A DNA stretch of 64,000 nucleotides from Coriobacteriia bacterium (GTDB lineage Bacteria; Actinomycetota; Coriobacteriia; Coriobacteriales; Atopobiaceae). The position numbers and the translations under genes were made by a program. The stretch covers positions 1-64,000 of the forward strand of contig JAUMVN010000001.1 in the NCBI GenBank assembly GCA_030530145.1, written 5' to 3'. The notes beneath the pieces were generated by a model. The model made no database searches and was not told where the DNA came from. It was given only the letters and a program-made list of their open reading frames with translations. Shown here piece by piece: positions 14,597 to 28,354 of this stretch (positions within the stretch are counted from its first letter, which is position 1; every line of letters begins with the position of its first letter).

Positions 14597-15436
14597 GTGG
14601 CGAGGATCCAGATCGCGTCCGAGGCGGGCGCCTGCTACGGCGTGGAGCGCGCGCTCAAGATGGTCGAGGAGGCCGCCGAGAGCTCCGAGGTCCCCGTCCA
14701 CACCCTGGGCCCGCTCATCCACAACCCGCGCGTGGTGGGAAGCCTCGCCGAGAAGGGCGTGACGGTCGTCTCCTCGCCCGAGGAGGCCGCAGGGCACACG
14801 CTGCTGCTGCGCACCCACGGCGTCACCCCGGACGAGGAGTCGCGCGCCCGCGGGCTCTGCCACGAGGTCCTCGACGCCACCTGCCCCTTCGTGAAGAAGG
14901 TGCACCTGGCGGCGGCGCGGCTCGCGCGCGAGGGGTACCAGGTCGTCGTGGTGGGGGAGAAGGGCCATCCCGAGGTCGAGGCCACGCTTCCCCACGCCCC
15001 CGGCGCGGTCGTCGTGGGCAACCCCGACGAGGCCGCGGGCCTGCCCGCCGCAAAGAAGATCGGCGTCGTGGTGCAGACCACGCAGTCGCGCGCGAACCTC
15101 GAGGCCGTCGTCGCAGCGCTTCTCGGCCGCGCCGAGGAGCTGCGCGTGGTCAACACGATCTGCGACGCCACGAGCGGCCACCAGGGGGCCTGCGCGGAGC
15201 TCGCCGAGAAGGCCGACGTCATGGTCGTGGTCGGCGGGCGCATCTCCGCGAACACCAAGCGCCTGGCCGAGATCGCCGCCGGGCTCTGCCCGCGCACGCA
15301 CCACATCGAGGGCGCCGACGAGCTCGAGGCGTCCTGGTTCGAGGGCGCGGGCCTCATCGGCGTCACCGCGGGCGCCAGCACCCCTGCCGCCCACATCGAG
15401 GCCGTCCAGGCGCGCATCGCCGAGCTCGCGCGGTAG
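14597..15436 (+). CDS. ispH: 4-hydroxy-3-methylbut-2-enyl diphosphate reductase
   Basis: The 279-residue iron-sulfur enzyme catalyses the last step of the MEP isoprenoid pathway, giving IPP and DMAPP. Three cluster cysteines are in GACYGVERA, DATCPFVKKV and NTICDATSGHQ. The substrate residues HTLGPLIHNP, RTHGV, EKGHPEVE and SANTKRL are conserved. The GTG at 14597 (MARIQIASEAGACYGVE) follows AGGAG that spans the plsC stop. The frame is open far upstream but that part is antisense-like and overlaps plsC. Confidence 0.93.
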   Translation: MARIQIASEAGACYGVERALKMVEEAAESSEVPVHTLGPLIHNPRVVGSLAEKGVTVVSSPEEAAGHTLLLRTHGVTPDEESRARGLCHEVLDATCPFVKKVHLAAARLAREGYQVVVVGEKGHPEVEATLPHAPGAVVVGNPDEAAGLPAAKKIGVVVQTTQSRANLEAVVAALLGRAEELRVVNTICDATSGHQGACAELAEKADVMVVVGGRISANTKRLAEIAAGLCPRTHHIEGADELEASWFEGAGLIGVTAGASTPAAHIEAVQARIAELAR

Positions 15437-15455
15437 CGCGCCGAACCTCCGGCGC

Positions 15456-15640
15456 CCCTTAAACGACGGTTGCAGCAATCCCGACCAAATTCCCGCCCCT
15501 TAAATGACGGTTGCAGCAATAGCGCCTAGCTGCAAACGTCATTTAAGGGGCGTTTGCCCCTCTCTATTGCTGCAACCGTCATTTAGAGGGCAAATAGCAC
15601 CGCCCCATTGCTGCAACCGCACTTTCCGGGGCGCACCAAA
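15456..15640. repeat. Intergenic fold-back repeat module 2
   Basis: Five copies of a 24-26 base unit fill the gap after ispH: two in one orientation (about 15459-15480, 15497-15520) and three inverted (about 15529-15552, 15565-15590, 15607-15632). The inverted unit reads TTGCTGCAACCGTCATTTA and then GGGGCG. Copies differ by a few bases, mostly near the GGGG end, so several alternative hairpins can form. There is no coding potential. Bases 15641-15750 hold no clear feature. Confidence 0.8.
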
Positions 15641-15750
15641 CAACAGACTCGATACCCCCCCGCACGAGCCCGTGGCCTCGCCGCGCGTCGGCCGACTCCG
15701 TGCGATTGAAAGTCACCTTGCCTACTTGTTCGTAAGGTTCACTATCTGAT

Positions 15751-15860
15751 GGACCCTCGCCCCTTATCCCCACGCGCAGTTCCGCATGAGCCGAAGGACA
15801 CTTAATGTGTCCTTCGTGCGAATAGGACTGTTTGAGCATGGGGATAAGGGGCGAGGGTCC
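15751..15860. ncRNA. 110-base fold-back element upstream of der
   Basis: A perfect 21-base outer stem (15751-15771 with 15840-15860, beginning GGACCCTCGCCCCTTATCCC) encloses a bubble with weaker pairing (CGCAT with GTGCG, GTTC with GGAC) and a perfect 9-base inner stem GAAGGACAC/GTGTCCTTC around the loop TTAAT. It lies 57 bases before the der start. It could be a structured 5' leader, a small RNA with 6S-like outline, or a miniature mobile element. No poly-T follows, so a simple terminator is unlikely. The structure is directly visible; the function is not. Confidence 0.6.
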
Positions 15861-15917
15861 AAGCGGCGGAATGAGCATGGTATTCTGATTCAGTCTGTAC
15901 CGATACAAGGAGAACCA

Positions 15918-17252
15918 ATGCCTAAGCCCATCGTAGCCGTGGTCGGCCGCCCGAACGTCGGCAAGTCCACGCTCGTCAACCGCATCGCCCTCTCGCGCGA
16001 CGCCATCGTCCACGAGTCCCGCGGCGTCACCCGCGACCGCTCTTACCACGAGGCCGACTGGAACGGCCGCGACTTCGTCATCATCGACACCGGCGGCATC
16101 GAGTCCATCAAGTCCAAGGACGTCTTCGCCCCCGGCATCCGCGAGCAGGCCATCCTCGCCACCCAGGAAGCCGACGTCCTGGTCTTCGTGGTCGACGGCG
16201 CCACCGGCATCACCGACGAGGACGAGGAGGTCGCGCGCATCGTCCGCAAGACCGACAAGCCCGTCTTCCTCTGCGTGAACAAGAAGGACAACCCCAGGAC
16301 CGAGCAGGACAACCTCTGGGACTTCTACGCGCTCGGCTGCGGCGAGCCCATGCCCATCTCGGCCACTCACGGCCACGGCACCGGCGACCTGCTCGACCTC
16401 GTGGTCGAGGCCTTCCCCGAGCCCGAGGAGGCCGAGGAAGACGACGACGTGCTCTCCATCGCCATCGTCGGCCGCCCGAACGTGGGCAAGTCCTCCCTGG
16501 CAAACCGCCTGGCCAACAAGAAGCGCTCCATCGTCTCCGACGTCGCGGGCACCACGCGCGACGCCATCGACTCGATGATCGAGTGGAAGGGCCAGGCCAT
16601 TAAGCTCGTCGACACGGCCGGTATGCGCAAGAAGAGCCAGGTCCACGAGGACGTCGAGTACTACAGCCTCGTCCGCGGCCTGCAGGCCATCGACCGCGCC
16701 GACGTCGCCATGCTCGTCGTCGACGCCGCCGTCGGCGTCACCGAGCAGGACCAGAAGGTGGCCGGCATGGCCATCGACCGCGGCTGCGCCGTCGTCCTGC
16801 TCATCAACAAGTGGGACCTCGTGGACTCCGAGCAGAAGCGCGACGAGATCGTCGCCTCCATCAACAAGCGCCTCTCGTTCGCGCCCTGGATTCCCTTCGT
16901 CAACATCTCCGCCCTCACCGGACGCGCGACGGACAAGGTCCTCGAGCTCGCCGTGAAGGCGGCCGAGGCGCGCAAGCAGCAGATCCGCACGACCGAGCTC
17001 AACCGCCTGCTCGCGGAGATCGCCGAGTCCGGCCACACCGTCTCGGACAAGGGCCGCAGGCTCAAGATGAAGTACGCGACGCAGACCGGCACCAAACCGC
17101 CCGTCATCTCCGTCTTCTGCAACGCGCCCGACCTCGCCGACGACAACTTCCAGCGCTTCTTCGAGAACCGCCTGCGCGCCCGCTTCGACCTCACCGGCAC
17201 GCCGGTGCGCCTCAAGTTCCGCAACAAGTCGACCGCGGGGGGCGAGCGCTGA
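15918..17252 (+). CDS. der: Ribosome-associated double GTPase Der (EngA)
   Basis: The 444-residue protein has two tandem G domains and a C-terminal KH-like domain. Both G1 motifs read GRPNVGKS(T/S), the G3 motifs are DTGG and DTAGMRKK, and the G4 motifs NKKD and NKWD. Der is needed for 50S subunit assembly. ATG 15918 has AAGGAGA at ideal spacing. An upstream frame extension through the fold-back element is not coding. The stop overlaps the plsY start by one base. Confidence 0.95.
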   Translation: MPKPIVAVVGRPNVGKSTLVNRIALSRDAIVHESRGVTRDRSYHEADWNGRDFVIIDTGGIESIKSKDVFAPGIREQAILATQEADVLVFVVDGATGITDEDEEVARIVRKTDKPVFLCVNKKDNPRTEQDNLWDFYALGCGEPMPISATHGHGTGDLLDLVVEAFPEPEEAEEDDDVLSIAIVGRPNVGKSSLANRLANKKRSIVSDVAGTTRDAIDSMIEWKGQAIKLVDTAGMRKKSQVHEDVEYYSLVRGLQAIDRADVAMLVVDAAVGVTEQDQKVAGMAIDRGCAVVLLINKWDLVDSEQKRDEIVASINKRLSFAPWIPFVNISALTGRATDKVLELAVKAAEARKQQIRTTELNRLLAEIAESGHTVSDKGRRLKMKYATQTGTKPPVISVFCNAPDLADDNFQRFFENRLRARFDLTGTPVRLKFRNKSTAGGER

Positions 17253-28252: not shown

Positions 28253-28354
28253 GCGTTGCAAAAACCGGGCTGATGGCAAGAAATTCCTGCCATCAGCCCG
28301 GTTTCCGCAACGCGGAGGCCCGTTTCTCTGCCATCAGCCCGGTTTCCGCAACGC
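28253..28354. repeat. Intergenic fold-back repeat module 3
   Basis: A 26-base arm (28253-28278) is inverted at 28288-28313, with 24 of 26 positions matching and a nine-base loop. The second arm is repeated exactly at 28329-28354. The unit contains CCATCAGCCCGGTTTCCGCA. The first arm could pair with either later copy. It lies between the converging DUF1667 and EIIB genes, upstream of the EIIB terminator on the minus strand. Confidence 0.8.

Follow-up and report, generated by a model that had tools for sequence, protein, structure and literature searches.

A hairpin upstream of der in a Coriobacteriia genome is one copy of a dispersed palindromic repeat that probably acts as folded single-stranded DNA

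The window analysed here is a 64,000-nucleotide stretch of an Atopobiaceae genome (Coriobacteriia bacterium, GCA_030530145.1, contig JAUMVN010000001.1, positions 1 to 64,000), in which a long hairpin lies between ispH and der (Table 1). Folding confirmed that this hairpin is real and far beyond chance: its minimum free energy is -92.8 kcal/mol versus -51.6 (sd 4.5) for dinucleotide shuffles (z -9.2), and 0 of 200 shuffles were as low. An unbroken outer stem leads through a bubble into a paired tip. The first-pass annotation had described a 110-base hairpin closed by a perfect 21-base stem, and its arms (15751–15771 and 15840–15860) are indeed fully complementary, the unbroken pairing in fact reaching 23 bp. 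The bubble and the perfect tip that it reported are also present, with a tip of 10 bp rather than 9. The 57 bases that it placed before a good ribosome site are instead the distance from the hairpin to the der ATG (15918); the site itself, AAGGAG at 15907–15912, is good and begins 46 bases past the hairpin. As the annotation had stated, there is no poly-T tract at the hairpin, and a scan of 15400–15950 for promoter- or terminator-like sites gave none. At the gathering score no Rfam family matches the hairpin, the window's three matches being tRNAs elsewhere, and the sub-threshold matches of the hairpin are mostly to eukaryotic microRNA models.

Table 1. Coordinates of the palindromic element, its parts and the neighbouring genes in the window
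Feature	Coordinates	Strand	Evidence
ispH, upstream gene, ending 313 bases before the element	14597..15436	+	TIGR00216, 263 bits (cut-off 187.85)
Whole palindromic element	15750..15861	minus (TCAAA strand, by convention); plus is the TTTGA strand	Fold z -9.2; arms found independently
Outer stem, left arm, 23 bp perfect	15750..15772	.	Arm unique to the window copy among copies compared; pairs with 15839–15861
Conserved family core, covered by covariance model R1	15774..15835	minus	R1 90.5 bits, model positions 1–62 of 62; this copy is among the 21 rows used to build R1
10-bp tip hairpin; its loop reads TTAAT (plus) or ATTAA (minus)	15792..15816	.	Fold and R1; 15792–15801 pairs with 15807–15816
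Five-base bulge, TTTGA on plus, TCAAA on minus	15831..15835	.	Read from sequence and fold; conserved in core alignment
Outer stem, right arm	15839..15861	.	Fold and arm search
der, downstream gene	15918..17252	+	TIGR03594, 544 bits (cut-off 306.7)

Other repeats are also present in the window. At 15453–15634, four copies of GTTGCAGCAAT are arranged in inverted fashion, with arms CGCCCCTTAAA and TTTAAGGGGCG and a spacing of 40–41 bases; this second dispersed repeat has related arrays elsewhere in the same genome (37 matches, both strands counted). At 28253–28354 lies a palindrome of 26–31 bases, one arm of which (GCCATCAGCCCGGTTTCCGCAACGC) is repeated such that two alternative long hairpins are possible.

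The hairpin before der is one member of a dispersed repeat family. Searching its own genome with the hairpin returned 15 places, including the copy itself and its reverse-strand match. Covariance model R1, built from the inner 62 positions of 21 copies with a degenerate copy (L017) left out, gave 15 full-length matches of 75–92 bits in the same genome. Two loci scoring 21 bits each (L039 and L040) are by inspection members with a different tip, bringing the total to about 17 copies, and the other R1 matches listed are the reverse strand of the tip. The first-pass annotation had named many dispersed copies as the result that would speak against a der leader, and these copies point to a mobile palindrome and away from such a leader. 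Its suggestion of a MITE with 21-base terminal repeats survives as far as dispersal goes; the ends differ from copy to copy, unlike those of a classic MITE, and it is the core, not the 21-base ends, that recurs through the genome.

At the level of the family, 38 of 140 genomes contain a match to R1; counted among the matches listed, 21 of these genomes reach at least 65 bits. A strict core pattern was found in 68 of 396 genomes and 25 of 153 genera of the class, where 68 is a lower bound because the pattern misses the window's own copy; the reversed pattern gave 0 among the matches listed from the same class scan. Scanning one genome per species yielded at least 119 stretches, nearly all from Coriobacteriia of three families, with further records labelled as Hydrogenedentota (numerous copies in J094), Bdellovibrionaceae (UBA6502), Omnitrophota and Actinomycetes. 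These further records are all metagenome-assembled and could be mislabelled or contaminated. In the J094 assembly, labelled Hydrogenedentota (L166, L169, L180 and others), many copies have one outer stem in common, with A and T tracts, and resemble bidirectional terminators. Many species share the sites behind thyA, inside a helicase gene and inside iorA, which suggests that within this genus the family is old and largely inherited vertically. No transposition event was seen directly.

Read along the TCAAA strand, a copy consists of an outer arm, GC, the bulge TCAAA, CAGTCC, a tip stem, in many copies closed by an ATTAA loop, then GGAACTG, C, GC and the other outer arm. The inner part is nearly invariant across the 21 copies of the core alignment, and an inner hairpin with its five-base bulge, TCAAA on one strand and TTTGA on the other, is common to all copies. 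The tip varies in sequence yet keeps all 10 of its pairs in all 21 copies, with 7 pairs changed on both sides and 0 on one side only, so that the tip covaries. Short-tip and further core subtypes occur in other genera and at other sites.

Around this core lies an outer stem of about 28 positions that is nearly always self-complementary and whose sequence depends on the site; 23 of 94 independent outer stems are perfect past the sixth position. At the iorA site, 13 distinct alleles (17 used of 19 given) are 95.3% Watson-Crick paired, and 37 cells show changes on both sides versus at most 17 in 500 shuffles, while the 9 of 18 pairs that vary are a number also reached by shuffles. Mean left-arm identity between alleles over 18 nt is 0.74 for helicase and 0.76 for iorA, and complementarity within alleles is 0.86 and 0.91, respectively; judged by simple identity, stem turnover at the same site is not striking. 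Two helicase alleles, L119 (G123) and L117 (G138), have reciprocal chimeric arms: the right arm of the former exactly complements the left arm of the latter, as would be expected from recombination inside the core. Such alleles with mismatched, chimeric arms persist, which we count against our preferred explanation. At L081 and L100, copies form tandem pairs in which the second has the same right arm and an unrelated left arm. The L054 and L055 loci (G127 and G130) carry element pairs with similar outer stems (CCCGCCCGGCGTGTCCCC and GGCCTCCGGCAT), between which short and long cores are swapped.

Some copies lie inside genes, and the reading frame stays open through the element in all 17 in-gene loci examined: eight DEAD/DEAH helicase genes, seven iorA genes, a TerB-domain gene and a xanthine-dehydrogenase-like gene. 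Within one genus, empty iorA alleles (G036, G126, G135 and G136) encode 29 amino acids between fixed anchors versus 52–61 in filled ones; these empty alleles are so diverged that they neither favour nor disfavour a fold-back insertion in which one target arm was copied. Part of the right arm of the iorA copies, CCGGCGCC, is already present in the empty G036 allele. Across species, a single iorA stem family carries at least five core types and both core orientations, the core of G130 being inverted.

Outside genes, copies are found preferentially behind gene ends, in one orientation. Among 101 independent copies, counted after removing loci of genomes with shared stems, 35 lie in sense and 4 in antisense within 60 bases past a gene end as predicted by a simple purpose-made codon model (p = 3e-7). 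In copies behind stop codons, TCAAA falls 26–54 bases past the predicted gene end. A wider, non-independent table of 203 copies, in which gene calling is poor at AT-rich loci, has 61 sense, 16 antisense (combined labels summed) and 76 far copies, together with 23 antisense and 18 sense copies in genes. Copies follow thyA, asd and groEL, among other genes. Several genomes have copies in the spacer that separates thyA from its co-directional downstream neighbour, which we take to be dfrA; in G137 this spacer looks like either a deletion between two elements or the ancestral state. Inverted pairs are frequent (for example L054, L055, L057, L058, L061, L083 and L094), with cores roughly 75–120 bases apart. 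A run of four or more Ts, the T tract of an intrinsic terminator, occurs in the 34 bases scanned past the core in 5 of 78 independent intergenic copies. In Collinsella aerofaciens (L163, NZ_OY725717.1), a copy stands some 200 bases ahead of groES, in the interval that follows an amidohydrolase gene. What makes the der copy atypical is that it stands upstream of a gene and that its TTTGA strand runs in the same sense as der, so that the copy is antisense relative to the orientation usual at gene ends.

The mismatches in the outer stems are unequal between the strands. Along the TCAAA strand, 102 independent stems contain 81 A.C and 20 G.T mismatches (p = 7e-10), a count that replaces an earlier 118:55 in which related stems were included. 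The ratio is 23:11 in the ++ context, which is weak taken alone, 15:0 in the -- context, 15:2 in in-gene sense copies and 7:1 in the small in-gene antisense class (9:5 by a less strict count); palindromes are error-prone in short-read assemblies, and all these ratios are to be read with that in mind. If the element acted only as a duplex, or had no need to pair, A.C and G.T would be expected equally often because the arms are complementary in composition. The skew has the same sign where neighbouring genes run along the element (38:13) and against it (22:1), so neither transcription nor replication direction explains it. The simplest reading is that the strand that must fold would be the complement of the TCAAA strand, with G.T wobbles tolerated. 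In sense copies the mRNA corresponds to the other strand, and this speaks for single-stranded DNA. RNA may contribute as well, the ++ context being the weakest at 23:11.

Combining these observations, we consider it probable that the der hairpin is one copy of a REP/BIME-like palindromic DNA repeat that acts as a folded single DNA strand. What is seen directly is the repeat and where its copies lie; which strand acts, and by what mechanism, is inferred from sequence patterns. The family is defined by its inner hairpin with a five-base single-stranded bulge at the foot, and a long outer stem, particular to each site, clasps this hairpin. The TTTGA strand would be the one that folds and works as single-stranded DNA, where a putative strand-specific DNA-processing activity would recognise it, and the stems would stay paired because unpaired copies would lose recognition. 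Several observations weigh against this reading: PF01797 (RAYT) genes did not supply an enzyme, no transposition event was seen, the family looks mostly vertical in the genus, chimeric arms persist, and the skew is weak in the ++ context and drawn from few mismatches in the in-gene antisense class. A more specific version can be put forward only tentatively: the repeats may form a third REP-like superfamily with a TTTGA tag, in which a putative single-strand DNA enzyme swaps the inner cassette or turns it round, changing core type and orientation within a resident outer stem that remains in place. Such an exchange would fit the iorA stem family that carries several core types and both orientations.

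A role in RNA seems to us unlikely. The element would then be a terminator or stability hairpin at the mRNA 3' end of some housekeeping genes, its stem covarying for mRNA folding. Such a role would fit both the placement and the orientation of copies past stop codons (35 versus 4), behind thyA, asd, groEL and others, as well as the AT-rich Hydrogenedentota assembly, where the stem between A and T tracts looks like an intrinsic terminator. However, T runs of at least four follow just those 5 of 78 intergenic copies, and the window copy is without a terminator-like site. In sense copies the sense strand moreover carries A.C mismatches, a kind not tolerated in RNA, where G.U would be expected; copies also occur within open reading frames and between the co-directional thyA and presumed dfrA genes. 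A related idea, that the outer stem is generally the pre-existing terminator hairpin of the gene, was rejected: in-gene copies have the same kind of stem, and the skew is on the wrong strand.

Recognition may be unnecessary if replication itself, by template switching, rewrites one arm from the other, which would keep the palindrome perfect and stretch it into its flanks. Arms that are near perfect yet differ between sites, and that change together at orthologous sites, agree with this account, as does the presence of CCGGCGCC in the empty G036 allele. We nonetheless regard it as improbable, since template switching would not hold an asymmetric bulge and an inner hairpin nearly invariant, would not be expected to give a strand skew of a single sign in both gene orientations, and sits poorly with the persistence of mismatched chimeric arms. 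That the family is a MITE, mobilised by a transposase through conserved terminal inverted repeats, is very improbable. The present copies resemble MITEs in being short, dispersed and palindromic, sometimes within genes, and many copies in the RUG13877 assembly, a partial exception, have partly common outer arms. Yet in most genomes no terminal repeats are conserved among copies, and inspection of the window copy by eye shows no target duplication. As for a der leader or a miniature 6S RNA, both raised by the first-pass annotation, we give them almost no credence. The outline recalls them; against both stand the dispersed copies, the lack of an Rfam match at the gathering score and the antisense orientation of the core, and in G001 and G004 der has no element upstream although the repeat occurs elsewhere in both genomes. 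The der copy is an ordinary family member that stands at an unusual site. Transcription would give the der leader a very stable hairpin, and any effect on der expression would be incidental.

REP repeats are linked to RAYT (Y1) transposases, and we examined this family as a partner. PF01797 is found in 95 of 140 family genomes, yet of 10 repeat-bearing genomes examined outside that set, 5 lack it. None of the 11 loci around PF01797 genes contained the repeat, so RAYT genes flanked by it were not seen, and other repeats stand beside PF01797 genes. We therefore rejected RAYT/Y1 as the partner. The RAYT-like protein of the window's own genome resembles NF047646 below the cut-off (57.8 versus 80 bits). 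Tandem repeats of 32–35 bases, AGAGCTTTGGGGAC and its complement, stand on both sides of its gene (L303, 955–1021 and 2102–2206), and are likely a separate REP family.

Should the reading as a folded DNA repeat be right, a whole class of gut bacteria would carry a REP-like repeat that bears another tag and has no known enzyme. Dozens of species would offer a natural experiment at one site, with stems that differ yet always match themselves, allowing one to ask which strand is the target, what keeps palindromes perfect, and how the helicase, IorA and similar proteins tolerate them. The family is a good case for how palindromic repeats persist and change, and hairpin-based RNA annotation in these genomes will also catch DNA repeats.

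Several known systems invite comparison. Integron attC sites are imperfect palindromes found right after genes in a fixed orientation; they vary in sequence and are active as a folded bottom strand. They carry conserved R and L boxes at their ends (RYYYAAC ... GTTRRRY) and are part of gene cassettes. The present repeat is likewise a sequence-variable imperfect palindrome behind genes in a preferred orientation, but its ends are not conserved, no such boxes are seen, and the adjoining genes are housekeeping genes. Literature on Collinsella, Atopobium, Coriobacteria names and Hydrogenedentota with palindromic or REP repeats gave, among the records listed, no description of the family. Palindromic candidate RNAs have been reported in gut genomes (PMC8040213, available part), and the family may be listed unnamed in the supplementary tables of that study.

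Rickettsia palindromic elements (RPEs) are described, in the available part of PMC10969869, as palindromes lying in frame within unrelated metabolic and DNA genes, in families of about 150 bp with conserved peptides. Compared by description, the 17 of 17 open in-gene loci here are similar, whereas the present stems vary between sites and most copies lie outside genes. The closest likeness is to REPs, which the accessible portion of PMC3733652 describes as dispersed palindromes with an unpaired tag at one end of the hairpin. Most of them follow coding regions and separate co-directional or convergent genes; they form dimers of opposite orientation, and some lie within genes, including helicases. 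That paper makes no mention of Collinsella, Coriobacter-, Eggerthella or Slackia. The present repeat is similarly dispersed, intergenic and mainly past gene ends, with frequent inverted dimers and occasional in-gene copies, one kind in a helicase. It differs in its tag, a TTTGA/TCAAA bulge rather than the GTAG or CGTC of the REP superfamilies treated there (PMC3733652), in the long site-unique outer stem that clasps its hairpin, and in that RAYT genes do not adjoin it. Because tag and outer clasp differ and the RAYT link was not found, we file the repeat as one that works like a REP outside the GTAG and CGTC superfamilies.
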